DNA of 13,023 bases from an uncultured Bacillota bacterium (GTDB lineage: Bacteria > Bacillota > Clostridia > Peptostreptococcales > Anaerovoracaceae): contig CAMNJK010000022.1 of assembly GCA_946541435.1 (NCBI GenBank), positions 1 to 13,023 of the forward strand, written 5' to 3'. The stretch's first letter is position 1, and every line of letters starts with the position of its first letter. The notes beneath the pieces were generated by a model, which was not told the DNA's origin, searched no databases, and worked only from the letters and a program-made list of their open reading frames with translations. This document shows positions 1-12,120 of the stretch, in pieces. A program made the translations under genes and the position numbers.

Positions 1-1333
1 TGTATTCGGCTTCGATCTTCTCCCGTTCCAGACCCTGCAGGCGCGCCAGACGCATGTCCAGGATGGCCTGGGCCTGTACGTCGGACAGACCGAAGGTATC
101 CATCAAACGTTCCTTGGCGTCGTTGTAGCTGGACCGGATGATCCGGATGATCTCGTCGATGTTGTCCAGGGCGATCCGCAGTCCTTCCAGGATGTGGGCC
201 CGGTCTTCCGCCTTCTTGAGGTCGTACCTGGTCCGGCGGGTGACCACATTCTTCTGGTGCTTCAGATACTCTTCCAGGATCTGATAGAGGTTCAGCACCT
301 TGGGCTGTCCGTCCACCAGGGCCAGCATGATCATGCTGAAGTTCTCCTGGAGCTGGGACTGTTTGTACAGCTTGTTCAGGGTGACCCGGGGATTGGCGTC
401 CCGCTTCAGCTCGATGACCACCCGCAGGCCCTGCCGGTTGGATTCATCGCGTATTGCCGATATACCTTCTATCTTCTTGTCCCGGACCAGCTCGCCGATC
501 CGCTCCAGCATCCTGGCCTTATTGACCTGGTACGGGATCTCTGTCACCACGATCTGTGATTTGCCTCTGGTGGTCTCCTCGATCTCCGCCACCGCCCGGA
601 CCTGGACCTTGCCCGTGCCCGTCCGGTAGGCTTCCTCGATGCCCTTGTGTCCCAGGATCTGGGCGCCCGTGGGGAAGTCCGGTCCCTTGATGATCTTCAT
701 CAGATCATCCACCGTACACTCCTCGTCATCGATCATCTTCACGCAGGCGTCGATGGTCTCGCTGAGGTTATGGGGCGGTATGGATGTGGCCATACCGACG
801 GCGATACCGTTGCTGCCGTTGATCAGCAGGTTGGGTACCCGTGAGGGCAGGACCACCGGTTCCTTCTCTTCCTCATCAAAGTTGGGGATGAAGTCCACCG
901 TATCCTTCTCGATGTCCCGCAGCATCTGCAGGGCGAAAGGCGTCATCCTTGCCTCGGTATAACGCATGGCCGCCGCGCCGTCGCCGTCGATGGAACCGAA
1001 GTTGCCGTGTCCGTCCACCAGCGGATATCTGGTGGCAAAGGGCTGGGCCAGCTTGACCATGGCATCGTAGATGGAACTGTCGCCATGGGGGTGGTATTTA
1101 CCCATGACTTCACCCACGATACGGGCTGACTTCTTGTGCGGCTTGTCCGGTGTTACCCCCAGACCGCTCATGCCGTAGAGTATTCTTCTGTGTACAGGTT
1201 TGAGTCCGTCTCTGACATCCGGAAGAGCACGTCCCACGATGACGCTCATGGCGTAATCGATGTAGGAGTTCTTCATCTCGTCATGGATCTCATGCTGTAT
1301 CATTTTCTGGTCTTCCAGAAGGGTCGTTGTCAT
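1..1333 (-). CDS. gyrA: DNA gyrase subunit A (5' portion, runs off the window)
   Basis: GyrA is the breakage-reunion subunit of gyrase, which introduces negative supercoils with GyrB. Translation of the minus strand from the ATG at 1333-1331 gives about 444 residues without a stop, roughly half of the usual 800-plus. The N-terminal winged-helix/tower region is clear: [25 protein letters not shown] at about 26-50 (seen in part here as a family hallmark), the [11 protein letters not shown] segment at 81-91, and the active-site tyrosine Tyr125 in AMRYTEAR. Residues aligned with E. coli Ser83 and Asp87 are Ser86 and Asp90, so the quinolone-target positions have the usual susceptible identities. 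An AGGAAA ribosome site lies 6 bases before the start. The gene follows gyrB after 31 bases, so the two are probably one transcript. The C-terminal beta-pinwheel domain is outside the window. Confidence 0.97.
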
Positions 1334-1364
1334 TGATGTTTCCTTTCGTTATGCAAAGGCTGGC

Positions 1365-3293
1365 CTAAATATCCAGCGTAGCATATACAGCGTGTTCTTC
1401 GATGAATTTCTTTCTGGGCGGTACCTTGTCTCCCATCAGGGTGGTGAAGATATCGTCCGCCGCAGCGCCGTCCTCCACTGTGATCTGGATCAGTGTCCGC
1501 TTGGTGAAATCCATGGTGGTATCCCACAGCTGTTCCGCGTCCATCTCGCCCAGACCCTTGTAGCGCTGGATCTCGACCTTGTTCTTGTTCTTCTTGTCCT
1601 TTGACAGCTCCGCCAGCAGCTTTTCCTGTTCCCGGTCGGAATAGGTATAGTAGATTTCTTTCCCTTTCTTGACTCTGAACAGGGGCGGCTGGGCCGCGTA
1701 GACATATCCGTTCTCGATCAGCGGCGTCATATAACGATAGAAGAATGTGAGCAGCAGGGTCCGGATATGGGCGCCGTCCACGTCAGCATCGGTCATGATG
1801 ATGATCTTGTGGTAACGCAGCTTTTCGATATCGAAGTCGGAACCGATGCCGCATCCGAAGGCGGTGATCATGTTCTTGATCTCTTCGGAATTCAGGATCC
1901 TGTCAAGGCGCGCTTTTTCTACGTTGAGGATCTTGCCTCTCAAGGGCAGGATGGCCTGCCGCGCCCGGTCTCTGCCTTCCTTGGCGGAGCCTCCCGCGGA
2001 ATCACCCTCCACCAGGAAGATCTCGGAGATGGCCGGATCCTTCTCGGAGCAGTCCGCCAGCTTGCCCGGCATGGAATTGCCGTCCAGGAAGCTGGCCCGT
2101 CTTGCCTGCTTTCTGGCCTTCTGGGCAGCCTGCCGCGCCCGGGAGGATTTAAGGCATCTTTCCATGATGGTCTTGGCCTGGGAAGGATTCTCCTCCAGGA
2201 ATGCCAGGACATAGTCCGCTGTGGCGGTCTCCACGAAACCTCTCATATCACTGTTGCCCAGTTTGGTCTTGGTCTGTCCTTCAAACTGGGGTTCCGTCAG
2301 CTTGACGGAGATCACGGCGGTCAGGCCTTCTCTCACGTCCTCGCCGGTCAGGGCTTCATCCTTATCCTTCAGGAACTTGTTGTTTCTGGCGTAGTTGTTG
2401 AAGACACGGGTCATGGCGGACTTGAATCCCATCAGATGGAAGCCGCCCTCCGTGGTATTGATATTGTTGGCGAAGGAAAGCACCGTCTCGCTGTAGCTCT
2501 CCGTATACTGGAGGGCGATCTCCACTTCCTTCTCTTTATCTGTTACTTCGAAATAAACGATGTCCTTATGAATGGCGTCCTTGTTGGCATTCATGAATTC
2601 CACATAGTTCTTGATGCCGCCTTCATAATGGAATACTTCTTCCTTCTTGCGCCCTTCCCGTTCATCCTTCAGGGAGATCTTCACGCCTTTGTTCAGGAAG
2701 GCCATCTCTCTGAGACGCCGGGCCAGGGTATCATAATCGTACACCACATCATCGAAGATCTCGGGATCCGGCCAGAAGGTGGACTTGGATCCGGTCTTTC
2801 TGGCATTTCCCACTTCCTCCAGGGGTGTGACGGTCTTACCGTATTCATAGGCCTGTCTGTAGACCTTGCCGTTTCTTCTGATCTCGACTTCCATCCGGGT
2901 GGACAGGGCGTTGACGACGGAAGCGCCGACACCGTGCAGGCCGCCGGAGACCTTGTATCCCCCGCCGCCGAATTTACCGCCGGCATGCAGCACCGTATGG
3001 ATGACTTCCACCGCCGGTTTCTTCATCTTCGGATGCATATCCACAGGCATGCCGCGGCCGTCGTCTTCTACCATAATGGAATTGTCCTTCTGGATGACCA
3101 CCTTGATGTTGGTGCAGAATCCGGCCAGTGCCTCGTCGATACTGTTGTCTACGATCTCATATACCAGATGATGCAGTCCGCGGGAACCGGTACTTCCGAT
3201 GTACATGCCAGGCCGTTTCCGGACGGCTTCAAGACCTTCCAGAACCTGGATCTGTTCCGCTCCGTACTGCTGAAGATTGTCGTTTTTTGCCAT
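1365..3293 (-). CDS. gyrB: DNA gyrase subunit B
   Basis: GyrB is the ATPase subunit of gyrase. The 642-residue product has the full family layout. The GHKL ATPase domain has catalytic Glu46 and Asn50 in [20 protein letters not shown] at 77-85, and the glycine-rich lid GGLHGVG at 117-123. The TOPRIM metal-binding motifs are EGDSAGG at 429-435 and DADVDG at 502-507. [12 protein letters not shown] starts at about 450, and the C-terminal GyrA-contact motif QRYKGLGEM is at 576-584. The length is normal for Gram-positive GyrB, without the proteobacterial insertion. The ATG at 3293-3291 is preceded by a strong AAAGGAGAGG ribosome site. A minus-strand promoter is visible just upstream, and gyrA follows 31 bases downstream. 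A long open frame on the opposite strand (1767-3341) is a codon-bias shadow. Confidence 0.98.
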
Positions 3294-3308
3294 TCTTTCC
3301 TCTCCTTT

Positions 3309-3324
3309 GTACGATTATACGTAC
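3309..3324. promoter_or_regulatory. Short inverted repeat in the gyrB 5' leader
   Basis: Arms GTACG and CGTAC flank the six bases ATTATA between the predicted gyrB -10 element and the ribosome site. Read on the minus strand, the centre is TATAAT, so this could equally be a second -10 element that lacks a clear -35. It sits at or just downstream of the expected transcription start. The regulatory role is inferred only from position and symmetry. Confidence 0.3.
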
Positions 3325-3334
3325 ACCACACGAT

Positions 3335-3363
3335 ATTGTAGCACAAAATCGCCGATTTGACAA
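3335..3363 (-). promoter_or_regulatory. Predicted sigma-A promoter of gyrB(-gyrA)
   Basis: Read on the minus strand, TTGTCA (plus 3358-3363) is separated by exactly 17 bases from TACAAT (plus 3335-3340). Each hexamer differs from consensus at one position. The expected start is near 3328, giving a leader of about 35 bases before the gyrB ATG. gyrB therefore appears to have its own promoter, separate from the dnaA-dnaN-recF transcript. This fits the 731-base gap and the structured elements that lie between recF and gyrB. Confidence 0.65.
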
Positions 3364-3501
3364 GTTTTTCGGCGTGTTTGATAAATTAGTTGATTTGATG
3401 TAAAAAAATCGCTTAAATCGATGATTTTTCGACCTAAATAGTCAGAAAATTTAAGAGTTGAACCTTATTAATTAACATATATTTCCTATTACTATATATT
3501 G

Positions 3502-3529
3502 TTGCTATTATACCCGAACCAATTATACC
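3502..3529 (+). promoter_or_regulatory. Possible promoter of hairpin RNA A
   Basis: A plus-strand TTGCTA (3502-3507) is spaced 16 bases from TATACC (3524-3529). Each hexamer matches consensus at 4 of 6 positions. Transcription from it would start near 3536, at the base of the left arm of the palindrome. An alternative -10, TATTAT (3506-3511), has only a weak -35 partner. The surrounding stretch 3364-3529 is AT-rich and otherwise shows no gene or repeat I can support. This is a weak prediction, supported mainly by its position at the element boundary. Confidence 0.3.
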
Positions 3530-3724
3530 TAAAAGCAATCGGTCTATGTGAATGGTCTTCGTCGCAAAGAGAATGGGAAGGCAGTTCGCGGCAGGTGGCC
3601 TGGCTCATGAAGGCGCGCAGAATTCTATGCGCGCCCATGAGCCAGTGACCCACATGCCCTGCTCACTGCCCCCTCCATTCTCTGTTTGCTCCTTGACAAC
3701 ATTCACATCAGCCGACTGCTTTTA
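3530..3724 (+). ncRNA. Long imperfect palindrome, copy A: putative structured RNA
   Basis: The two halves of this 195-base stretch pair almost throughout into a rod. The terminal stem is TAAAAGCA/TGCTTTTA (3530-3537 with 3717-3724), followed by TGTGAATG/CATTCACA (3547-3554 with 3700-3707). Further in are AGAGAATGG/CCATTCTCT and GGCTCATG/CATGAGCC, and a GC-only apical stem GGCGCGC (3612-3618) with GCGCGCC (3629-3635) and a ten-base loop. If transcribed on the plus strand, the 3' end is a stem running into four U residues, which resembles a terminator. Copy B (3790-4008) is a diverged homologue on the other strand with compensatory stem changes. A 62-codon open frame (3552-3740) runs through it. 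Its similarity to a frame in copy B comes from the repeat, so I do not call it a protein. A 6S-like RNA or a palindromic mobile element are alternatives. The strand is a best guess. Confidence 0.55.
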
Positions 3725-3738
3725 CTATATTTATTACT

Positions 3739-3784
3739 AATATCTAAAATTATTATTCATCAGGTGGCCTGATTTTAAGATATT
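3739..3784. terminator. Hairpin between the two palindromes, possibly a bidirectional terminator
   Basis: AATATCTAAAA (3739-3749) pairs with TTTTAAGATATT (3773-3784) with one bulged base. Inside, after a 9-base bulge, ATCAGG (3759-3764) pairs with CCTGAT (3768-3773) around a TGG loop; T3773 can serve only one of these two stems. The flanks are A/T runs on both strands. The position between the facing ends of copies A and B fits a shared terminator for two convergent RNAs. The core CAGGTGGCCTG (3761-3771) repeats an 11-base segment of copy A (3592-3602), so it could instead be a remnant of a third copy. Confidence 0.35.
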
Positions 3785-3789
3785 TATTA

Positions 3790-4008
3790 TTTGATAGGAA
3801 CAGCTCCTTATGAAGGTGAGTGTTGTTGAGGAGCAGTAAGAAAGAACAGCCAGAGGTGAGAAAGGCACGTGGTTCACCGTCTCGTGGGCGCGCAGGAAAT
3901 GAAGCGCGCCTTCACGAGACGGGCCACTTGCCTCGAACCTCTGACGTTCTTTCTCTGCGACGAGGACCACTCACCTTCAATGGAGCTGCTCACTATTAAA
4001 GTATCAAA
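3790..4008 (-). ncRNA. Long imperfect palindrome, copy B: putative structured RNA, homologue of copy A
   Basis: This 219-base rod is closed by TTTGATA (3790-3796) pairing with TATCAAA (4002-4008). Further in are CAGCTCC with GGAGCTG, GAAGGTGAG with CTCACCTTC, AGAAAGAAC-type stems, and GTCTCGTG/CACGAGAC. The GC-only apical stem is GCGCGCC/GGCGCGC with a ten-base loop near 3899. Read on the minus strand, it aligns along most of its length with copy A read on the plus strand. The alignment includes TGGTCYTCGTCGCA on the 5' arm and TGCTCCTYRACAACA on the 3' arm. Stems differ from copy A by paired changes. A minus-strand TATAAT sits 4 bases outside the terminal stem, right after the recF stop. The element could also act as a recF transcript end structure or be a palindromic mobile element. 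The transcription direction is inferred. Confidence 0.55.
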
Positions 4009-4012
4009 CACT

Positions 4013-4041
4013 ATTATATTTCGATTATATTTCGATATCGA
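4013..4041 (-). promoter_or_regulatory. Predicted promoter of hairpin RNA B, overlapping the recF 3' end
   Basis: On the minus strand a perfect TATAAT (plus 4013-4018) follows TCGATA (plus 4036-4041, 4 of 6 to TTGACA) by 17 bases. The predicted start, about 4006, falls at the first bases of the terminal stem of copy B. The -35 lies inside the last codons of recF. The agreement of promoter spacing and element boundary supports minus-strand transcription of copy B, but AT-rich recF tail codons could produce the -10 by chance. Confidence 0.45.
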
Positions 4042-5122
4042 TTTCTCCGCTCCGGATCTTGAACACCTTTCCCTCCGGCAGAGATCTGGCCACAGATCCG
4101 ATCAGATCCGTGGTGGTGATGAACATCTGATGGTCTCCCAGGGAGTTGAGCAGGTACTTCTGGCGCTCATTGTCCAGTTCAGATAAAACATCGTCTAATA
4201 ACAATATAGGAGATTCGCCGGTCTCTTCTTCAATGAGCCTGATCTCGGACAGCTTCAGGGAAAGGGCCGCGGTACGCTGCTGTCCCTGGGAGCCGAACCG
4301 GCGCAGATCGATGCCGCCTAAGGAGATCCGGATATCATCCCGATGGGGTCCGTGACGGGTGACACCATGAAAACGGTCCTTCTGACGGTCTTCCTTCAGG
4401 ATCCGGTCAAATACAGCTTCTTCGCTCTCCCCTTCTTCCGGCTGGATATCCGTCTCATATTCCAGAAGCAGGTTTTCCCTGCCGCCGGAGATCCGGCTGT
4501 GGATATCCCGGCTGATCATATCGATCTTCTCAATAAAACGACGCCGGTCGCGGACGATGCGGGCCCCGGCCCTGACCAGGGAATCATCCCAGATATCCAG
4601 CACAGTCTCATCGATGCGGTCTTCCTTGAGAAATGCGTTCCGCTGCCGGAGGATCCTCCGGTATTCATTGAGATCGCTCACGTAACCCGGACGGATCTGG
4701 CAGATCTCCCGGTTGATGAATCCCCTTCTCTTTCCCGGTTCCTCTTTGACGATCTTCAGATCCTCGGGAGAAAAGATGATGATATGGAGACGTTCCAGCA
4801 GCTCCGATGTGCGGGAGATCCTGGCCCCGTCCACCTTAACAGCCTTGGCCCCTGCCTGGCTGATGATGATCTCGCTGGTATGTTCCTCATCTTCGTAAAA
4901 AGCGACTGCCCTGTTTTTGCAGTATTCTTCCCCGAATCGGATCAGTTCCCTGTCCCGGATGGTCTTGAAGGACCTCGCCATGGCATGCAGATAAATGCCC
5001 TCCAGCAGATTGGTCTTTCCCTGGGCGTTTTCACCCAGAAAAATGTTCACATCCTTGCTGAAGGACACTTCGAGATGTTCATAGTTTCTGAAATTATCCA
5101 GTTCCAGTTCTTTGATATACAT
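4025..5122 (-). CDS. recF: DNA replication and repair protein RecF
   Basis: RecF is an SMC/ABC-type ATPase that helps load RecA on gapped DNA with RecO and RecR. The 365-residue product is of normal length. It starts MYIKELELDNFRNY, with Walker A GENAQGKT at 30-37, the signature-like GSQGQQRTALSL-type segment in the C-terminal third, and Walker B ILLLDD at 306-311 followed by VLSELD. The start ATG (5122-5120) lies 13 bases after the dnaN stop with no recognisable Shine-Dalgarno sequence. The bases before it read ATGTAATG, a start-stop pair overlapping the recF start, so translation probably depends on ribosomes finishing dnaN. The usual small S4-domain gene between dnaN and recF is missing. 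Downstream is the unusual palindrome region rather than gyrB directly. Confidence 0.97.
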   Translation of the reverse strand: MYIKELELDNFRNYEHLEVSFSKDVNIFLGENAQGKTNLLEGIYLHAMARSFKTIRDRELIRFGEEYCKNRAVAFYEDEEHTSEIIISQAGAKAVKVDGARISRTSELLERLHIIIFSPEDLKIVKEEPGKRRGFINREICQIRPGYVSDLNEYRRILRQRNAFLKEDRIDETVLDIWDDSLVRAGARIVRDRRRFIEKIDMISRDIHSRISGGRENLLLEYETDIQPEEGESEEAVFDRILKEDRQKDRFHGVTRHGPHRDDIRISLGGIDLRRFGSQGQQRTAALSLKLSEIRLIEEETGESPILLLDDVLSELDNERQKYLLNSLGDHQMFITTTDLIGSVARSLPEGKVFKIRSGEIDIEI

Positions 5123-5135
5123 TACATCGCGGATA

Positions 5136-6248
5136 TTACATGGTGGGGATCCGTACCGGCAGGATCAGGTATTCATAGGCATCCCCTTCCACCGGGCGGA
5201 CCACGCAGGGGGTCACGCTGGTCTTCAGATTCAGGGTGACTGTCTCATCGCTGATCTCTTTAATGACGTCCGAAACGTACTTGGAGTTGAATCCGATCTC
5301 GATATCGTTTCCTTCCTTATCGATGGCCAGCTCTTCCCGCACATCACCTTCTTCAGAACGGGAGGTGATGGTCATCATATCTCCATGGACAGAAACCTTG
5401 ACCAGATTGTTCTTTCCTTCCCGGGCCAGGAGCGACGCGCGCTCGATGCTGTCCAGGAACATCTCCCGGTTGACGATCAGTTTTGTGGTGCTGTCTGTGG
5501 GGATGATCCTCCGGTAGTCGATGAATTCTCCCTCCATGATGCGGAGAGCGATCTCTGTGCGTCCGGTATAGATGACTGCCCGCTTCTCGCCGAGATAGAG
5601 CTTCATATCATCATCCTGATCCTCTTCCGTGATGATCCGGGCGATCTCATTCATGATCTTGGCGGAAATGATGAACTTCCGCTCCTCTTCATTCTTCATG
5701 GCTTCATTGGCCAGCGCCAGCCGGAATCCATCCAGGGCCACCATGGTGATCTTATCTTCTTTCATTTCTGTCAGGATGCCGGTGAGGACGCCCTTGGATT
5801 CATCGATGCTGGCAGCGAAGGATGTCTGCCGCACCATATTCCGGAAGAGTTCCGTATCGAATACCATGAACTTGTCATCATCAGACTTCTTTCCCATTTC
5901 CGGAAATTCCTCCGGCGGCAGTGTCATGACCCGGAAGCTGGAGGAGCTGGTGCTGATGCGCAGGCTGTCTGCCCCCTCCTCTTCAATAAAGACTGTTTCA
6001 TTCGGAAGCTTGCGGATGATCTCACTGAACAGTTTGGCTGTGGCCACCGCGGATCCCTCTTCATCGACTGTGGCGTCGATGGTCTTCCGGATGCTCATGT
6101 CCAGATTGGACGATGTCAGTATCAGCTGACCATCCGATGCGGTAAGAAGGATTCCCTTGAGTACCGGGATGGTGGTTCTGGCAGATACTGCCTTCATGAC
6201 GGTATTGATGGCGCGGTTCAGTTCCTGCTGATTGCATTTGAATTTCAT
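5136..6248 (-). CDS. dnaN: DNA polymerase III beta subunit (sliding clamp)
   Basis: DnaN forms the ring-shaped homodimer that tethers DNA polymerase III to DNA and recruits repair proteins. The 370-residue product matches the family in length. It begins MKFKCNQQELNRAINTVMKAVSARTTIPVLKGILL, the typical first domain of the three repeated clamp folds, and ends in VRPVEGDAYEYLILPVRIPTM, matching the conserved C-terminal ILPVR segment. The ATG at 6248-6246 has a strong AGGAGG site five bases upstream. The 186-base space to dnaA carries the predicted origin unwinding element. I see no convincing separate promoter there, so dnaN is probably read from the dnaA promoter. recF follows after 13 bases. 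Confidence 0.98.
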   Translation of the reverse strand: MKFKCNQQELNRAINTVMKAVSARTTIPVLKGILLTASDGQLILTSSNLDMSIRKTIDATVDEEGSAVATAKLFSEIIRKLPNETVFIEEEGADSLRISTSSSSFRVMTLPPEEFPEMGKKSDDDKFMVFDTELFRNMVRQTSFAASIDESKGVLTGILTEMKEDKITMVALDGFRLALANEAMKNEEERKFIISAKIMNEIARIITEEDQDDDMKLYLGEKRAVIYTGRTEIALRIMEGEFIDYRRIIPTDSTTKLIVNREMFLDSIERASLLAREGKNNLVKVSVHGDMMTITSRSEEGDVREELAIDKEGNDIEIGFNSKYVSDVIKEISDETVTLNLKTSVTPCVVRPVEGDAYEYLILPVRIPTM

Positions 6249-6286
6249 CTTGACCTCCTGATAAACGAATGAGAAGCCCGTTTCTT

Positions 6287-6337
6287 TAAATTATTTATAG
6301 TAGTAATAGTAGTAGGCTCTGTGTATTCTGTGCAAAA
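6287..6337 (-). other. Origin unwinding element: paired DnaA boxes, DnaA-trios and AT-rich DUE
   Basis: Read on the minus strand (dnaA toward dnaN), two abutting 9-mers, TTTTGCACA (plus 6329-6337) and GAATACACA (plus 6320-6328), resemble DnaA boxes with one and two mismatches to TTATNCACA. They are followed by the GC-rich GAGC step. Then come six trinucleotides, CTACTACTATTACTACTA (plus 6298-6315), which are TAG/TAA on the plus strand, and an AT-rich run (plus 6287-6297). The order box-box, GC step, trios, AT-rich DNA matches the basal unwinding system known from Bacillus subtilis, where DnaA assembles on the trio strand to open the duplex. The location between dnaA and dnaN is also the same. 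Confidence 0.75.
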
Positions 6338-6382
6338 CCTGGTAAGTCCCTGATTATGCTGGTTTTCTTGTTCTTTTATTTC

Positions 6383-6391
6383 TGTGGATAT
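6383..6391 (-). other. DnaA box between dnaA and dnaN
   Basis: The minus strand reads ATATCCACA, one mismatch from the consensus TTATCCACA, in the same orientation as the two boxes next to the DnaA-trios about 50 bases away. It is probably an additional DnaA loading site for the unwinding element. Confidence 0.6.
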
Positions 6392-6434
6392 CCTGCTTTT
6401 TTATTCCACATCGGTGTGAATGAATCCTTTTGTA

Positions 6435-7820
6435 CTATTTGATTTCCTCTTTCAGGCTGCGGATCTCTTCTGCCAGAGCGGAGTTGGTTTTGATCTCTCC
6501 GCTGATCTTGTCACAGGCGTGCAGCACGGTGGTGTGATCGCGGCCGCCGAAGGAAGCGCCGATCTTGGGAAGTGACATATCCGTCAGCTCCCGGGTCAGA
6601 TACATGGCGATCTGCCTTGGATGGGTGATCTCGCGCTTTCTTTTTGAGGATTCCATATCCGATAATTTAATGTTGTATTTTCTGCAGACGGTCTGCTTGA
6701 TGCTCTCACAGGTGATGGTCACATCCCGTGGATCGAAGATGTCGGGCAGTTTTTCCCGGGCCAGTTCCACGGTCAGCTTCTCATCCAGAAGCGTACGGAA
6801 GCTCAGGACCCGGGTCAGGGCGCTTTCCAGTTCCCGGATGTTGAACTTGATCTTCTCAGCGATCATATCGATGATCTTCAGGAGCTCATCATCCAGGGGA
6901 GCCTTCTGCTGTTCCGCCTTGTTTCTCAGGATGGCCACCCGGGTCTCGAAATCCGGCGGCTGGATATCCGCCACGATGTTCCACTGGAAACGGGACTTGA
7001 GACGCTCATCCAGATCGGTGAGTTTGCTGGGATGACGGTCACTGGTGATGACGATCTGTTTCTCCAGCTCATACAGAGTATTAAATGTATGAAAAAATTC
7101 ATTCTGGGTGCCTTCCTTGCCTTCGATGAACTGGATATCATCGATGAGAAGCACATCCACAGTACGGTATTTCTGTTTCAGGGCATTGATCTGGGCATTG
7201 CTTTTTTTGGCTCCTCTGGTGGCTTCGATGAATTCCGATGTGAACATTTCGGAGGATACGTAGAGGACCTTCATCTTCGGATCGTTCTTCTGGATGAAAT
7301 TGCCGATGGCGTGCATGAGATGGGTCTTGCCCAGTCCCGGCGCGGAATAAAGGAATACCGGATTGTAGACGGTGGCCGGTGTTTCCGCCACTGCCAGGCA
7401 CACGGCATGGGCATAGTTGTTGTTGGATCCCACGATGAAATTATCGAAGTTGTATTTGGGGTTCAGAAAATACTCCTGCTTCAGGGCGTCCGCGGGAAGA
7501 GGCCGGATGGTCTTCTCGCTGGGTGACGGTTCATCGCTCATGCTTTCCGTCAGCTCGTTCTCCGACATCAGTTTCACAACAGGCGTATAACTGCCTTTGA
7601 AATACTTCCCGGTGGTTTCCTCGATCAGCGCAGCATAATTCCGCTGGACCATATTGACCACCATGGGTTTTGTGGTTCCCAGGGTGATGGTCTTCGCGTC
7701 CTTGTCGATCTCGATGGGCTGCAAAGGCTGGATCCAGGTGTGGAAGCTCACTTCAGTGATCCGCTCCCTGATATCATTCAGTATTTTTTTCCAAATCGTA
7801 TTATCAATACGCTGTTTCAT
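6435..7820 (-). CDS. dnaA: Chromosomal replication initiator protein DnaA
   Basis: DnaA is the AAA+ ATPase that binds DnaA boxes and opens oriC. From the ATG at 7820-7818 the product is 461 residues. Domain I is at 1-85 (IWKKILNDIRERITEVSFHTWIQPL is typical). A variable linker follows. Walker A PGLGKTH is at 161-167, Walker B LLIDDIQF at 224-231, sensor 1 ITSDR at 258-262, and the arginine-finger region RLKSRF at 273-278. The C-terminal DnaA-box-reading helix-turn-helix contains GGRDHTTVLHACDKI at about 425-439. The frame stays open for 48 more codons upstream. I reject that extension because the family fold starts at MKQRIDNTIWKK, an AAGGA ribosome site lies 9-10 bases before it, and the predicted promoter lies inside the extension. 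Confidence 0.97.
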   Translation of the reverse strand: MKQRIDNTIWKKILNDIRERITEVSFHTWIQPLQPIEIDKDAKTITLGTTKPMVVNMVQRNYAALIEETTGKYFKGSYTPVVKLMSENELTESMSDEPSPSEKTIRPLPADALKQEYFLNPKYNFDNFIVGSNNNYAHAVCLAVAETPATVYNPVFLYSAPGLGKTHLMHAIGNFIQKNDPKMKVLYVSSEMFTSEFIEATRGAKKSNAQINALKQKYRTVDVLLIDDIQFIEGKEGTQNEFFHTFNTLYELEKQIVITSDRHPSKLTDLDERLKSRFQWNIVADIQPPDFETRVAILRNKAEQQKAPLDDELLKIIDMIAEKIKFNIRELESALTRVLSFRTLLDEKLTVELAREKLPDIFDPRDVTITCESIKQTVCRKYNIKLSDMESSKRKREITHPRQIAMYLTRELTDMSLPKIGASFGGRDHTTVLHACDKISGEIKTNSALAEEIRSLKEEIK

Positions 7821-7832
7821 GTTCTGTGATCC

Positions 7833-7848
7833 TTCGATAATTCGATAA
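7833..7848. repeat. Tandem 8-base repeat in the dnaA leader
   Basis: TTCGATAA occurs twice in direct tandem between the dnaA promoter and its ribosome site. It is too short to assign a function. It could be a chance repeat or part of a regulatory leader. Confidence 0.4.
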
Positions 7849-7860
7849 TAATGCGAAACT

Positions 7861-7889
7861 ATCATATCAAAATAGAGGAACCTTCGCAA
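7861..7889 (-). promoter_or_regulatory. Predicted dnaA promoter
   Basis: On the minus strand TTGCGA (plus 7884-7889) and TATGAT (plus 7861-7866) are separated by exactly 17 bases, with two and one mismatches to the sigma-A consensus. Transcription would start near 7853, leaving about 33 bases of leader before the dnaA ATG. Two DnaA-box-like sites lie 20-125 bases upstream (7908-7916 and 7974-7982), which would allow DnaA to control its own gene, as in other bacteria. Confidence 0.6.
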
Positions 7890-7907
7890 TTGTATGCCCA
7901 AAAATAA

Positions 7908-8006
7908 TTTTCCACAGGAATTCCACATGTAATTGTGAAGGGATTTTTGTTTTTTTATCAGCATCTGAGGAGGTTATCCACAAACAGTGGAAAAAATTGT
8001 GCATAG
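7908..8006. other. DnaA box cluster upstream of dnaA (part of oriC)
   Basis: A perfect consensus box TTATCCACA is at 7974-7982 on the plus strand. Near-consensus boxes are TTTTCCACA at 7908-7916 (plus, one mismatch), CTATGCACA on the minus strand (plus 7998-8006, one mismatch to TTATNCACA) and TTTTCCACT on the minus strand (plus 7986-7994, two mismatches). The cluster sits in the 387-base gap where gene direction flips, next to dnaA. With the trio element between dnaA and dnaN it gives a bipartite origin. The rest of the gap holds the dnaA and rpmH promoters and no gene. Confidence 0.75.
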
Positions 8007-8103
8007 TTTTCACAGATGCAACTATATCTTGTTATTTTTGAATTTCGGCATGCATGGATCGTAGGGAAAGTGAACTCCAGCCTTTGAAATAGAAGGAAAT
8101 GAA

Positions 8104-8132
8104 TTGACATGAAAATTGACGGGATGTATAAT
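8104..8132 (+). promoter_or_regulatory. rpmH promoter with perfect consensus hexamers
   Basis: TTGACA (8104-8109) and TATAAT (8127-8132) both match the sigma-A consensus exactly and are separated by the ideal 17 bases. The expected start is near 8139, leaving a leader of about 70 bases before rpmH. This strength suits constitutive high expression of a ribosomal protein gene. Confidence 0.85.
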
Positions 8133-8146
8133 ATCAAAGCTAATGT

Positions 8147-8172
8147 GCGTAAATTGAAATTAAGATTTACGC
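8147..8172 (+). promoter_or_regulatory. Hairpin in the rpmH leader
   Basis: GCGTAAA (8147-8153) and TTTACGC (8166-8172) form a perfect 7-base-pair stem with a 12-base AT-rich loop. It starts about 8 bases after the predicted transcription start and ends 19 bases before the AGGAGG site. It could stabilise the transcript or take part in control of rpmH. No U-run follows, so it is not a terminator. The function is not known. Confidence 0.35.
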
Positions 8173-8207
8173 GATATTTAATTTAGAAGCAAGGAGGAAT
8201 AAGTTAA

Positions 8208-8342
8208 ATGAAAATGACATACCAGCCGAAAAAGCGGCAGCGTAAGAAAGAGCACGGCTTCAGAAAGAGAATGGCCACAAAGAACGGAAGAAACGTTCTG
8301 AAGAGAAGAAGAAGAAAAGGAAGAAAAGTATTGTCAGCATAA
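8208..8342 (+). CDS. rpmH: 50S ribosomal protein L34
   Basis: The 44-residue product begins [20 protein letters not shown] and ends RKGRKVLSA. It is highly basic, and both its length and its sequence are diagnostic of L34, a component of the large ribosomal subunit. A strong AAGGAGG ribosome site lies about 10 bases upstream of the ATG. It is the first gene of the rightward cluster next to oriC, as in most bacteria. A hairpin with a T-run overlaps its stop codon and probably reduces transcription into rnpA, giving more L34 than RNase P protein. Confidence 0.97.
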
Positions 8343-8363
8343 AGACCTGTACGAGGTCTTTTT
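8341..8363 (+). terminator. Intrinsic terminator or attenuator between rpmH and rnpA
   Basis: AAAGACCT (8341-8348) pairs perfectly with AGGTCTTT (8354-8361) around the loop GTACG, followed by a run of T to 8363. The left arm overlaps the rpmH stop codon. There is no obvious new promoter before rnpA, so partial read-through is likely. Confidence 0.75.
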
Positions 8364-8392
8364 GTATTGAGGAGTACCTGGAGCAGCGGAAT

Positions 8393-8425
8393 ATGCCGGA
8401 ACCAAAGCGGCAGCCGTGTGTTTAA
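8393..8425 (+). CDS. Ten-codon leader ORF directly before rnpA (putative)
   Basis: This mini-ORF encodes MPEPKRQPCV, has a GGAG site (8380-8383) nine bases before its ATG, and ends with TAA one base before the rnpA ATG (TAA-C-ATG). rnpA has no Shine-Dalgarno sequence of its own, so the mini-ORF may deliver ribosomes to rnpA by termination-reinitiation. The evidence is positional. I recognise no function for the peptide itself. Confidence 0.4.
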   Translation: MPEPKRQPCV

Positions 8426-8426
8426 C

Positions 8427-8771
8427 ATGCTGAAAAAAGAAGTCCTGAGAAACAAGAATGATTTCAGTTCCATCTACCGGACGGGAAGATCCGTCGGTGA
8501 TCGGTATGTGGTATTGTTCTTCAAGAAGAATGGTCTTGGTTACAACAGGACAGCTTTTCTGGCCAGTAAGAAGGTGGGAAACAGCGTTCGGAGAAACCGG
8601 GCCAGAAGACTGATGAGAGAAAGCTGGAGAAGGATCGCAGAGGATCTTCCCGCGGGATATGATTTTATCATCATCGCGAGGAATACCATCAATGAACGCA
8701 GCTTTCAGGATGTATCATCATCTCTGAACCACGCGGTCAGGAGATCCAGACTGAAGGAACAGGTGAAATAG
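8427..8771 (+). CDS. rnpA: Ribonuclease P protein component
   Basis: RnpA is the small basic protein that binds the RNase P RNA and helps it cleave tRNA 5' leaders. The 114-residue product has the normal length. It has the central-cleft segment typified by FLASKKVGNSVRRNRARRLMRE, with the conserved RNR motif (RRNRARR at 55-61), and a C-terminal half starting GYDFIIIAR. I chose the ATG at 8427 because MLKKEVLRNKNDF matches the usual start. A longer frame from TTG at 8367 would add 20 residues unlike the family. There is no clear ribosome site at this ATG, and a mini-ORF ends one base before it. The stop codon abuts the yidD ATG. Confidence 0.95.
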   Translation: MLKKEVLRNKNDFSSIYRTGRSVGDRYVVLFFKKNGLGYNRTAFLASKKVGNSVRRNRARRLMRESWRRIAEDLPAGYDFIIIARNTINERSFQDVSSSLNHAVRRSRLKEQVK

Positions 8772-8981
8772 ATGAAGACGGTTCTGATTCTGATCATCAG
8801 ATTCTATCAGAAATTCATATCCCCTCTGTTCCCGCCGACCTGCAGGTTTTATCCGACCTGTTCGGTCTATTTTATTCAGGCACTCGAAAAATACGGTTTC
8901 TTTAAGGGAAGTTACCTCGGAATACGAAGACTTCTGAAATGCCACCCTTTTCATGAGGGAGGTTATGATCCCTTAAAATGA
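8772..8981 (+). CDS. yidD: Membrane protein insertion efficiency factor YidD
   Basis: YidD is a small inner-membrane-associated protein that promotes YidC-dependent membrane insertion. The 69-residue product has the family pattern: a hydrophobic/amphipathic start ([21 protein letters not shown]), the cysteine motif TCRFYPTCS at 23-31, the [27 protein letters not shown] region, and a very short tail. The ATG follows the rnpA stop with no gap, and an AGGTG site lies inside the rnpA end. It is cotranscribed with rnpA and yidC, its functional partner. Confidence 0.95.
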
Positions 8982-8997
8982 AGGAGAAAGGTTTTTT

Positions 8998-9738
8998 ATG
9001 TATACGTTCTTAGGCATCATTGCGAAGCCTCTCGGTATGCTTCTTGGCCTTCTTTATGGTTTCATTGGACATTACGGGATATGCATCATCATATTTACCG
9101 TCATTGTCAAGGTCTGTCTCTATCCTCTGTATATCAAGCAGATCAAATCCACTGCGAAGATGTCCGATCTTCAGCCGAAGATGCAGGAAATACAGAAGCG
9201 GTATGCCAATGACCAGGAAACCATGAACATCAAGATGCAGGAGCTCTACAAGGAGGAGAAATTCAACCCCATGGGCGGATGTCTCCCCATGCTCATCCAG
9301 ATGCCGATCATCATGGGGCTCTTCGCATTGCTCAGAAATCCGATGAGATATATGTCGGATGAGAATATGATTTTCGCTTTTCATGAAGCTTTCATATGGA
9401 TCAAGGACCTGAGCCAGCCGGATCCCTGGATCCTGCCGATCATCGCAGGCGTCGCCACATTCATTTCTTTCACCATGAATACGATGCTGACGGATACAGG
9501 CAATGCCCAGGCAAATCAGATGGCCGGCATGTCCAAGATGATGCAGTACGTCTTCCCGGTCATGATTCTCTGGATGGCCAGATCGTTCCCCTCGGGGCTT
9601 GCGCTCTACTGGGCGGTCAGCCAGATCATTCAGATCTTCTTCAACATCCACATGTCCTCAGTCAGGAAAAAGATGAAGAGAGAATCTGAAGAGAAGCGTA
9701 TGAGAGAGAAGCTGGAAAAGAAGCTGAATGCCAGATAA
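8998..9738 (+). CDS. yidC: Membrane protein insertase YidC/Oxa1 family
   Basis: YidC inserts and folds membrane proteins, alone or with SecYEG. The 246-residue product has the short Gram-positive layout. A hydrophobic N-terminus (1-24) is followed by TM1 at about 25-44, a charged cytoplasmic hairpin at about 48-95, TM2 starting at GGCLPMLIQMPI, TM3 around 144-165, and TM4-TM5 around 182-222. The tail is strongly basic and coiled. Lys38 in FTVIVKVCLYPL occupies the position of the groove arginine seen in many YidC proteins and keeps the positive charge. No lipobox cysteine is visible at the N-terminus, unlike the Bacillus paralogues. An AAGGAG/AAAGG site precedes the ATG by 6-11 bases across a T-run. 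jag follows after 36 bases. Confidence 0.95.
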   Translation: MYTFLGIIAKPLGMLLGLLYGFIGHYGICIIIFTVIVKVCLYPLYIKQIKSTAKMSDLQPKMQEIQKRYANDQETMNIKMQELYKEEKFNPMGGCLPMLIQMPIIMGLFALLRNPMRYMSDENMIFAFHEAFIWIKDLSQPDPWILPIIAGVATFISFTMNTMLTDTGNAQANQMAGMSKMMQYVFPVMILWMARSFPSGLALYWAVSQIIQIFFNIHMSSVRKKMKRESEEKRMREKLEKKLNAR

Positions 9739-9774
9739 TGATCCGGATTCAGCGAATTGGAGGAAATATATTAA

Positions 9775-10656
9775 ATGGACGCAATTGAAAAATGGGGCGT
9801 CAGCATTGAAGAAGCGGTCGACCTGGCTTTGCACGAGTTGAAACTTCCCAGAGAGGATGTTGAAGTCACGGTGCTGGAGGAGCCTTCCAGAGGATTCTTC
9901 GGAATCGGATCCAAGCTGGCAAAGGTAAGAGTCGAGCGCAGACAGCCGGCGGTGGAAGAAAAGAAAGAAGAAGAACCCGTCCGGAAAGCTGCAAAGGCTG
10001 GCCCCATAGGAAAAGAAGAAGTTCTCCCGGAAGACCTGGTGACCCAGGAAGACCGGCAGCGTTCTGACCGTCGGGACAAGGACAGAAAACCCAGAGAGCG
10101 CAGGGACAGAAAGAACAAGTCAAACAAACAGAAAAAAGAAAATAAAGAATTCGTGAAAGAGAGCGTCAATATCGCTCTGGACGGGGTGGATGTGGAAAGC
10201 CTCGCCCTGACGGAGGAACATGAGGCGCTGACCTTCCTGAAGGAGATCACCGGGAAGATGGGCCTCGAACTGAACTTCGTCTGCAGGACCGGAGAGAACA
10301 TGGTCTATGTGGAGATGAGCGGCGACGATTCAAGAACCGTGATCGGCAAGCGCGGACAGACCCTGGACGCCATCCAGTATCTGACCAGCCTGGTGGTCAA
10401 CAAGGACAACAAGTCCTATATCAAAGTTGTTGTGGATGCGGAGAATTACCGGGCGAAGCGGCAGCGTACCCTGGAACAGCTGGCTTACCGGCTGGCGGGC
10501 AAGGTAGCCAAGACACGTAAGTACGTCAGACTGGAACCCATGAATCCTTATGAGAGAAAAGTGATCCACGCCACACTGCAGAATCACCCTGAAGTAACCA
10601 CCAGAAGTGAAGGCGAAGAGCCGTACAGAAGGATCATCATCGAACTGAAAAAATAA
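9775..10656 (+). CDS. jag: Jag/KhpB RNA-binding protein (Jag-N, KH, R3H)
   Basis: Jag (KhpB) is a single-stranded nucleic acid binding protein, usually encoded next to yidC and linked to cell elongation and small-RNA binding in Gram-positive bacteria. The 293 residues divide into Jag-N (1-52, with EEPSRGFFGIGSKLAKVRV) and a highly charged Lys/Glu/Arg linker (about 53-125), probably disordered. A KH domain (about 150-222, with GKRGQTLD at 191-198) and an R3H domain (about 226-291, with RKVIH at 261-265 as the R-x3-H motif) complete it. The GGAGG site is 11 bases before the ATG, slightly long. A strong terminator follows the stop, marking the likely end of the rpmH-jag transcript. Confidence 0.96.
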   Translation: MDAIEKWGVSIEEAVDLALHELKLPREDVEVTVLEEPSRGFFGIGSKLAKVRVERRQPAVEEKKEEEPVRKAAKAGPIGKEEVLPEDLVTQEDRQRSDRRDKDRKPRERRDRKNKSNKQKKENKEFVKESVNIALDGVDVESLALTEEHEALTFLKEITGKMGLELNFVCRTGENMVYVEMSGDDSRTVIGKRGQTLDAIQYLTSLVVNKDNKSYIKVVVDAENYRAKRQRTLEQLAYRLAGKVAKTRKYVRLEPMNPYERKVIHATLQNHPEVTTRSEGEEPYRRIIIELKK

Positions 10657-10665
10657 GACTTCATC

Positions 10666-10697
10666 AGAGCCCGCACCATGCGGGTTCTGTGTTTTTT
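10666..10697 (+). terminator. Intrinsic terminator after jag
   Basis: AGAGCCCGCA (10666-10675) pairs with TGCGGGTTCT (10679-10688), ten pairs with one G-U, around a CCA loop. After GTG comes a run of six T (10692-10697). It ends 19 bases before the chosen mnmE start, and no promoter is visible in between, so some read-through into mnmE is likely. Confidence 0.85.
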
Positions 10698-10716
10698 AAC
10701 AGAGGACAGGCGGAAG

Positions 10717-12120
10717 ATGGAAGAGATAATGAACATGGAAGATACCATAGCTGCGATCGCCACCCCCATGGGAGAAGGCGGGATCGGTGTGATCCGCATC
10801 AGCGGACCCGAAGCAAAAGACATCCTGGAAAAAGTATTCGAATGCGCCGGGGATGTGGATGAGATCATCAGCAGGCGCATGACCTACGGTCATATCATCG
10901 ATCATGAAAACAATCAGATCGTGGATGAGTGCATGGCTGTCTATATGAAAGGGCCCAAGACCTATACCGCCGAGGATACGGCGGAGATCAGCTGCCACGG
11001 CAGCATGGTATCCCTGAAGAACACTTTGGGTCTGGTTCTCAGGTCCGGCGCCCGTCTGGCGGACCACGGCGAATTCACAAAGCGCGCCTTTCTGAACGGG
11101 CGGATCGACCTGTCCCAGGCGGAGGCAGTCATCGATGTGGTCCGGGCGAAGACCGACCGGAGTTTTGACGTGGCCATCAGCCAGCTGCAGGGGGGACTTT
11201 CCCTCAGGGTCAGCGAGATCCGCACCAAGCTTCTGGACCTTCTGGTGGATATTACGGTGAATATCGATTACCCGGATGAGGACATCGAGGAACTGACCTA
11301 TGAAACCATGGGCGATCAAGTATTGCTAATAGGCGATATGATTGAAAAACTAAGGTCTACAGCCCATGCAGGCAAGATGCTGCGGGAGGGACTGCGGGTG
11401 GTGATCACCGGCCGTCCCAACGTGGGAAAGTCCTCTCTGATGAACGAACTGCTCCGGGAAAACCGGGCCATCGTCACGGACATTCCCGGCACAACCAGAG
11501 ATACCATTGAAGAGTCTGTGAACATCCGGAACATCCCTGTCCGGCTCACCGATACCGCGGGGATCCACGAGACCGACGACGTGATCGAGCAGATGGGGAT
11601 CGAACGCAGCAAGGACGCCTTCAACAAGGCAGATGTGATCATCCTGATGCTGGACGGGAGCCAGGCGCTGACGGAGGAAGACCTTCAGCTGGTGGAAGAG
11701 ACAAAATCGTACATAGGCGATAGGAAATGTATTGCTTTACTGAACAAGTCAGACCTGGGATTCTCCGTGGGAGAGAACGAAGTGCGGGATCTGCTGCCCA
11801 AGGCAACGGTGCTTCGTGGAGCAGTGAAGGAGTCCCTGGGGATCGATGCTGTGGAGGACGAGATCGAGACCTTTGTTTACGGCACTGAAGGATCCCGTCC
11901 TAACAGGGTCCTGGTCAATAATGTACGGCACATCCGTCTGCTGGAACAGGCAGCCCAGGATATAGAGCAGGCGGAGGAACTGATCCGCCGCCGGGAACCC
12001 ATGGAACTCATCGAGGTGGATGTCAGGAGCGCTTACGACGCCCTGGGTGAGATCGTGGGAGAAACGGTGAGCGACGAGATTCTGGATGAGGTATTTTCAA
12101 GGTTCTGTCTGGGAAAATAA
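10717..12120 (+). CDS. mnmE: tRNA uridine-34 modification GTPase MnmE
   Basis: MnmE works with MnmG to place carboxymethylaminomethyl-type groups on C5 of wobble uridine 34 in certain tRNAs. From the ATG at 10717 the product is 467 residues. The N-terminal folate-binding domain has DTIAAIATPMGEGGIGVIRISG and the YTAEDTAEISCHG segment. The G domain, inserted in the helical domain, has G1 GRPNVGKS (232-239), G2 GTTRDT (258-263), G3 DTAG (279-282) and G4 NKSD (343-346). The C-terminal CLGK at 464-467 carries the catalytic Cys. Start choice is uncertain: ATGs at 10717, 10729 and 10735 are all in frame with weak AG-rich sites. The frame is open back to 10678, but that part lies in the jag terminator. 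mnmG follows after 10 bases. Confidence 0.96.
   Translation: MEEIMNMEDTIAAIATPMGEGGIGVIRISGPEAKDILEKVFECAGDVDEIISRRMTYGHIIDHENNQIVDECMAVYMKGPKTYTAEDTAEISCHGSMVSLKNTLGLVLRSGARLADHGEFTKRAFLNGRIDLSQAEAVIDVVRAKTDRSFDVAISQLQGGLSLRVSEIRTKLLDLLVDITVNIDYPDEDIEELTYETMGDQVLLIGDMIEKLRSTAHAGKMLREGLRVVITGRPNVGKSSLMNELLRENRAIVTDIPGTTRDTIEESVNIRNIPVRLTDTAGIHETDDVIEQMGIERSKDAFNKADVIILMLDGSQALTEEDLQLVEETKSYIGDRKCIALLNKSDLGFSVGENEVRDLLPKATVLRGAVKESLGIDAVEDEIETFVYGTEGSRPNRVLVNNVRHIRLLEQAAQDIEQAEELIRRREPMELIEVDVRSAYDALGEIVGETVSDEILDEVFSRFCLGK

Follow-up and report, generated by a model that had tools for sequence, protein, structure and literature searches.

The 731-bp region between recF and gyrB in the window (the whole stretch of 13,023 nucleotides that was analysed) holds two large imperfect palindromes, copies A and B, which probably constitute a face-to-face, BIME-like doublet of a DNA-palindrome family dispersed within the Anaerovoracaceae by transposition-like gain. 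We consider A and B to be members of a palindromic DNA repeat family, whose general kind is known and which could not be matched to anything described, and not a private pair of RNA genes. The element is best read as a palindromic repeat of the BIME/MITE-like kind that is unusually large, retains conserved motifs in its unpaired parts and settles near the 3' ends of genes.

Two facing palindromes and their family

Genes recF and gyrB, named from their translations, both lie on the minus strand and enclose an intergenic region at positions 3294..4024. The initial annotation had placed two long imperfect palindromes of opposite orientation here, and both were found at these sites and are related to each other. 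The core of copy A occupies 3550..3704 on the plus strand and the core of copy B 3818..3972 on the minus strand, facing A. The cores are separated by 113 nt and share 73.5% identity. They match the covariance model with 154.2 bits (A) and 153.8 bits (B), scores that come from a model built from ten sequences including A and B themselves. Both copies fold far more stably than shuffled sequences, with z-scores of -10.9 for A and -13.7 for B.

Copy A possesses a 25-nt outer left arm (3530..3554, plus strand), which overlaps the core by 5 nt and forms inverted repeat I2 with the outer right arm at 3700..3724 (plus strand), to which it is 84% complementary. In copy B, the outer 5' arm (3973..4010, minus strand) pairs in RNA as well as DNA folds with the outer 3' arm at about 3786..3817 (minus strand), the limits of both arms being approximate. 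The unpaired modules were delimited in an alignment of 98 copies. In A, these are GTCTTCGTCGC at 3555..3565 (family consensus GTCCTCGTCGC) and TGCTCCTTGACAAC at 3687..3700 (family consensus TGCTCCTGCGGA) on the plus strand; in B, they are GTCCTCGTCGC at 3957..3967 and TGCTCCTCAACAAC at 3822..3835 on the minus strand. Both copies are diverged members of the family, as they lack AACTC and have altered 3' modules. The helices and paired changes reported for A and B agreed with our inspection: between GGCTCATG/CATGAGCC and GTCTCGTG/CACGAGAC two base pairs differ, and both partners changed each time. The internal-loop motifs said to be kept in both copies recur across the family in fuller form, as judged from the alignment of 98 copies. 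Of note, positions 4025-12120 of the window resemble a replication-origin region in gene content (recF, dnaN, dnaA, followed by rnpA, yidC, jag and mnmE; names from translations), which would place the A/B doublet a few kb from the likely oriC.

Read from the outside to the centre, the element is composed of copy-specific complementary arms, an internal loop GTCCTCGTC / TCCTGCGGA, a stem starting GCAG/CTGC, and further stems. The inner part contains stems with small internal loops and a GC-rich apical stem, and the tip reads AACTC ... TCAAACA. The core comprises about 150 nt, and the unit including its arms about 200-350 bp. Conserved unpaired motifs of the family are GTCCTCGTCGCAG, AACTC and CTGCTCCTGCGGA; by crude counting in 98 copies, 92 contain AACTC and 93 a TCAAACA-like motif, while 73 carry GTCCTC at their start and 68 carry TGCGGA at their end. 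Arm sequences differ from copy to copy, with complementarity being retained. For 92 of 96 copies, the two arms of one copy matched each other above the 95th percentile of swaps between copies (median scores of 23.5 and 8.0, respectively; copies with short flanks left out of the 98). In genome G128 (L117, L119, L121 and L059:6317-6474) the outer arms end REP-like (CGTTTCACGGGGACAGGC-like), while the inner arms of these copies are mostly copy-specific and still complementary. In [Eubacterium] minutum, the two long arms are swapped relative to the core between copies (L062:11220-11385, L074:3021-3186, L134). A shortened copy starts at L333:1467, in which arms and end modules are present and nearly all of the inner hairpin is gone.

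DNA searches revealed a third copy (C49) in the genome from which the window derives and a fourth in relatives (G024). Covariance model R1, built from A, B and the C49 and G024 copies, matched 3 of 148 genomes, G128 contributing seven copies and G021 a single one. Model R2, to which distant copies had been added, matched 32 of 349 Anaerovoracaceae genomes. The positive genomes belong to 5 of 92 genera and carry up to 7 matches each; 25 of the 49 genomes of the window's own genus are among them. As the difference between R1 and R2 illustrates, these counts depend on the model, and the genome and copy numbers obtained with R2 are lower bounds because at most eight candidates were scored per genome. 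An order-wide search yielded matches in 21 of 393 genomes, all 21 of them from the host's family. Alignment A4 comprises 101 matches in 81 loci, three of which are antisense echoes of their own copies; script-based counts take 98 of the 101 rows. A carrier with a complete genome is [Eubacterium] minutum ATCC 700079 (G234, CP016202.1), which contributes 7 copies to A4 and is placed by NCBI in the Anaerovoracaceae, Peptostreptococcales. This carrier is cultured.

A pattern consisting of the end modules matched at least 120 stretches in the genome_contigs collection. A fold-back threshold was passed by 90 of 130 pattern matches, GC-rich coding DNA among them, and the covariance model gave 42 matches in 85 of 125 pattern loci (L271-L310 left out). 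Other palindromes share the same end modules and have other inner stems (L193, L201, L213, L222, L234, L275 and L335, from Clostridia MAGs). Such end-module-only palindromes fold back on themselves and come from MAGs that the submitters assigned to Clostridiaceae or Lachnospiraceae. Five pattern matches fell on viral contigs, none of which was confirmed by the covariance model. A DNA match in G086 was dropped, as it appeared by eye to be coding DNA without the fold of the element. Judged by titles and the openings of abstracts, a description of the family was not found in the part of the open literature that was searched. Apparently, this family of large palindromes, which lie next to the ends of genes in Clostridia of gut and rumen, is undescribed.

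Covariation and G-U pairs in the stems

The initial annotation interpreted A and B as two paralogous structured non-coding RNAs of about 185-215 nt. Its more general claim that selection acts on a folded molecule which keeps certain unpaired motifs is supported, and it had proposed covariation in homologues as a check. Strong covariation was indeed observed. When A, B and two more copies were aligned by sequence alone, both sides had changed in 17 of 44 pairs and 98.9% of the cells pair, as compared to a mean of 87.2% in shuffled alignments; none of 500 shuffles paired as well, and sliding controls were far lower. In the alignment of 101 rows, including the three antisense echoes, 46 of 47 model pairs covary, a figure that refers to an alignment fitted to the structure. 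Stable folds (z -10.9 and -13.7), strong covariation and conserved unpaired motifs are features that also favour a structured RNA, as do the promoter-like sites that flank A and B on their outer sides. Bacterial rod RNAs such as 6S RNA are comparable in size and rod shape. The element differs from 6S RNA in that it lacks an Rfam match, is multi-copy and contains very few G-U pairs.

True RNA helices tolerate G-U pairs, and the same pair appears as A-C on the non-transcribed strand. We therefore folded the core on itself under a scoring that makes no difference between kinds of mismatch, and counted those single mismatches that have a match on either side. The 98 copies contained 5,114 Watson-Crick pairs, 31 G-U, 64 A-C and 253 other mismatches, and the 43 non-redundant copies gave 2,276, 16, 30 and 100, respectively. 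The rod-shaped SRP RNA of the same genus served as control and yielded 1,038 Watson-Crick pairs, 75 G-U, 10 A-C and 58 others in 20 of 24 loci, redundancy being kept and the four shortest partial matches (L187-L190) left out. The difference between the non-redundant elements and the SRP RNA control corresponds to a Fisher p of 8e-10. Minimum-energy folds led to the same picture: the ratio of G-U to Watson-Crick pairs was 218 to 4,727 in sense and 207 to 4,908 in antisense orientation, both far under the SRP control (193 to 1,137). In the stems of the element, G-U is no better tolerated than A-C, and neither strand behaves like a selected RNA. The observed surplus of A-C would speak for an RNA encoded on the other strand, yet these mismatches account for about 1% of the pairs, which is far from the SRP control. 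As G-U tolerance is absent, unlike in SRP RNA of the same genus, complementarity seems to be kept at the level of DNA, most simply via template switching and/or recognition of folded DNA.

Functional RNAs are usually proven by covariation, and this family covaries although neither of its strands bears the G-U signature of an RNA. In stems without G-U tolerance, compensatory changes are non-specific evidence for RNA, and the family may be a natural case of DNA-level processes imitating selection on RNA. A genuine RNA gene would likewise lose its G-U pairs through template switching, so the G-U test counts against covariation as proof more than against transcription. The comparison of G-U with A-C is simple and applicable to other candidate RNA families.

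Comparisons of orthologous copies indicate in which order the changes arise, some copies entering these comparisons twice. In six comparisons of copies 89-98% alike, one-sided changes to G-U (7) and A-C (15) and otherwise broken pairs (12) stand against 3 double changes. At 70-80% identity (three comparisons), 28 double changes were counted next to 5 G-U, 9 A-C and 17 broken pairs, and some double changes stand in runs. One-sided changes appearing first and double changes later fits arms that are re-matched by copying, as in template switching.

The promoter-like sequences noted at the outer edges of A and B are present as consensus matches at 3472-3500 (plus strand) for A and at 4041-4013 (minus strand) for B. 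Within 110 nt upstream, an inward-pointing promoter-like site occurs in 8 of 93 copies (copies with short flanks left out of the 98); shuffled sequences gave 6.0 on average, and the opposite side of the element 12. Hence, the family as a whole does not share the promoter-like sites of A and B. Rfam contributed no assignment either: at the gathering threshold there was no match in the window, L011 or L012, and 16 further loci gave a single glycine riboswitch match located away from the element. The initial annotation had likewise been unable to match the hairpins to a known family. Permissive thresholds produced chance-type matches, mostly to microRNA and snoRNA models and far under the cut-offs. 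Taken together, the lack of G-U tolerance on either strand, promoter-like sites that are not enriched upstream, and the dispersed copies and empty sites described below make two paralogous RNAs an unlikely reading of A and B, and not the best one.

Gene ends, empty sites and movement

Neighbouring genes, i.e. guesses based on the longest ORF, were called on both sides of 81 of the 98 copies outside ORFs; 17 elements had no usable neighbour or lay inside an ORF. The flanking genes are convergent in 32 cases, tandem in sense orientation in 24, tandem in antisense orientation in 19 and divergent in 6, and 7 of the 19 antisense-tandem cases represent the second member of a doublet. Accordingly, 75 of the 81 elements adjoin at least one gene 3' end, a number that stands without a background rate for ordinary gaps.

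Such a position would suit an element that serves the host at 3' ends, being transcribed in 3' UTRs and acting as (bidirectional) terminator, as insulator between convergent genes or as mRNA stabiliser, with dispersal being secondary. A terminator or insulator role is the main rival to the DNA-element reading and may coexist with it, but on its own we judge it rather improbable. In its favour, terminator-like hairpins were seen by eye at empty sites, namely in G042 (L100), G020 (L067, L081) and G007 and G020 (L318), and T runs follow some apical stems. However, by a crude pattern such a T run is present in 22 of 98 copies, and 76, including A and B, fail. A terminator scan of the recF-gyrB gap returned one site, a 5-pair stem inside B that is in conflict with the long fold. 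Moreover, several copies are located, as judged by eye, just downstream of an intact terminator, and no clear terminator was visible in G007 at L068 or in G003 at L067. The position beside gene ends would also result from the loss, by purging, of insertions that hit promoters or genes.

Close pairs of copies always face each other: all 12 are in +/- orientation with gaps of 24-210 nt, which corresponds to about 7 independent loci after merging orthologues, A/B included. One facing doublet is inverted as a block in G022 (L060:2092-2450) relative to G021 (L061:3584-3946); copies of the same type are 81-84% identical in this doublet and have swapped places. Facing doublets and placement at 3' ends resemble E. 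coli BIMEs (PMC2817692, in excerpt), and by analogy with what has been reported for these BIMEs the element might be an architectural site, bound by gyrase or a nucleoid protein, that spread and was then retained at gene ends for DNA topology. Presence is patchy, with 25 of 49 congeners positive by model R2, so such a site is probably not required, and we consider this explanation very unlikely.

Copies of the element occupy unrelated places within one genome. Among the congeners of the window, 39 others had a recF match; 29 of these loci were fetched and 27 also hold gyrB. In none of the 27 did the covariance model detect the element in the recF-gyrB gap, which measures 87-267 bp there. Nine further orthologous sites were sought in close relatives, of which L068, L100, L067, L318 and L081 were readable; L102 seems shared, judged by spacing only, and L069, L090 and L092 had no readable flank pair. 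The clearest case is L068, where G013 and G047 carry a 218-bp block including the arms that is missing from G007, G003 and G020, the flanks in G007 being 95-96% identical to those of the carriers. Thus, as is typical of MITEs, a discrete unit is present or absent at an orthologous site, and at five other sites the element is missing in some relatives. Apart from the recF-gyrB gap, relatives without it are G042 at L100, G020 and G003 at L067, G007 and G020 at L318, and G020 at L081; these absences are model-negative for those relatives that were submitted to the model. At L067, the gap is filled with N in G013; in G007 it is longer, measuring about 1,690 bp, and gave no match to the model. By parsimony rather than from a tree, the empty sites would reflect gain and not loss of the element. 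Other copies are orthologous across species, indicating that elements persist, are long-lived and may serve the host.

The initial annotation had also considered a palindromic mobile element, recognisable by dispersed copies with target-site duplications. Of this, the dispersed multi-copy distribution was found, whereas a clear target-site duplication was not seen at any site, TGTAG/TGCAG being possible at L068 only.

At L318, simple insertion does not explain the site, since a terminator stem is found in the middle of the element. Here, G007 and G020 carry a plain terminator. The terminator stem and left flank of G007 (AAGAGAATAGTAAAACCCGGAG...) match the inner part of the G013 element and, less closely, the G003 element. 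Either these terminators are relics of elements, or elements exchange sequence with terminators. The likeness between terminator and element spans L318, L371, L372, L369 and L368. The idea that a terminator had been captured as apical stem, suggested by L318, was dropped as it was not repeated at four other sites.

Related repeats and possible mobilisation

ERIC, YPAL and RPE are examples of palindromic intergenic repeats. Large repeats of this kind include stem-loop families (PMC2267715, in excerpt). The element resembles these and MITEs in being non-coding, palindromic, intergenic, multi-copy and mobile-looking, but its arms are copy-specific and yet complementary, and it has conserved mismatched modules, features by which it departs from the repeats in that excerpt (PMC2267715). 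It further differs in that neither a parent transposase nor a clear target duplication was found for it. REP/BIME sequences are dispersed extragenic palindromes, often arranged in inverted doublets, which are associated with RAYT transposases and whose palindromes are preserved by complementary changes (PMC2817692, in excerpt). The element likewise is a dispersed extragenic palindrome in inverted doublets, as in all 12 close pairs (compared with the same excerpt of PMC2817692). In the part of the table concerned, REPs measure about 20-40 nt and start GTAG or GTGG-like (PMC2817692). In contrast, the element has a core of about 150 nt with internal-loop motifs and ends with GTCCTCGTCGCAG / CTGCTCCTGCGGA, and is no short palindrome in the sense of that table part (PMC2817692). 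It also differs from REP/BIME in its relation to RAYT, the Y1_Tnp gene being found in one of four genomes tested, G128, where several copies have REP-like outer arms.

Template switching during DNA replication copies one arm of a hairpin onto the other and explains double stem changes and inverted segments (PMC8794818, in excerpt). The family displays the same double changes and inversions; the hairpins treated in that excerpt concern RNA genes (PMC8794818), whereas the present repeat family seems to be maintained at the level of DNA. On this basis, a mechanism can be outlined for the element. The palindrome would fold when the DNA becomes single-stranded or is extruded, and the mismatched, conserved internal-loop motifs might be the marks by which a nuclease or recombinase acting in trans recognises and moves it. 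During replication through the hairpin, template switching could copy one arm onto the other; this would rewrite the stem sequence while complementarity is kept, and selection would preserve the unpaired marks. Arm copying together with selection on the unpaired marks would result in RNA-gene-like covariation without any need to act as RNA.

Folded-DNA sites 3' of genes are also represented by the attC sites of integrons, which have R and L boxes and form cassette arrays. As a more tentative extension, the family may exemplify a class of mobile elements whose defining feature is folded DNA. Such an element would be an imperfect hairpin of 150 nt, the conserved unpaired loops of which are read by an enzyme in single-stranded or cruciform DNA; it would home to gene 3' ends or terminators and take or rewrite its arms locally by fold-back synthesis, giving rise to RNA-like covariation. 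If such a class exists, RNA-discovery methods would call its covariation a strong new RNA. If the element moves as folded DNA, this suggests that a group of Clostridia from gut and rumen harbours an enzyme awaiting discovery.

Candidates for this enzyme were sought in several ways. Y1_Tnp (PF01797) was detected in G128 and not found in G021 or in the incomplete genomes G000 and G024, and mobilisation by a RAYT was dismissed as the domain occurs in only one of the four genomes examined. No transposase or autonomous copy was found, and a longer copy with both end modules around a gene was detected neither in the fetched loci nor in five whole genomes scanned for the 3' module. Solitary end modules proved to be degraded, shortened, variant or chance cases only. 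Ten genes located between or near copies were scanned and did not include a common carrier gene; they encode an S41 peptidase, an EndoU-like, a YhgA-like, a DUF6273 and a DUF711 protein, a radical SAM protein, UPF0236 twice, a PEP-utilising enzyme and one unmatched product. UPF0236, presumably an ISLre2-type transposase, adjoins 2 of the 7 [Eubacterium] minutum copies in A4. In an all-against-all BLAST of six [Eubacterium] minutum loci, the UPF0236 stretch was shared by L062 and L074 only. Beside these two copies, the UPF0236 gene is surrounded by near-identical repeats of 183-314 bp.
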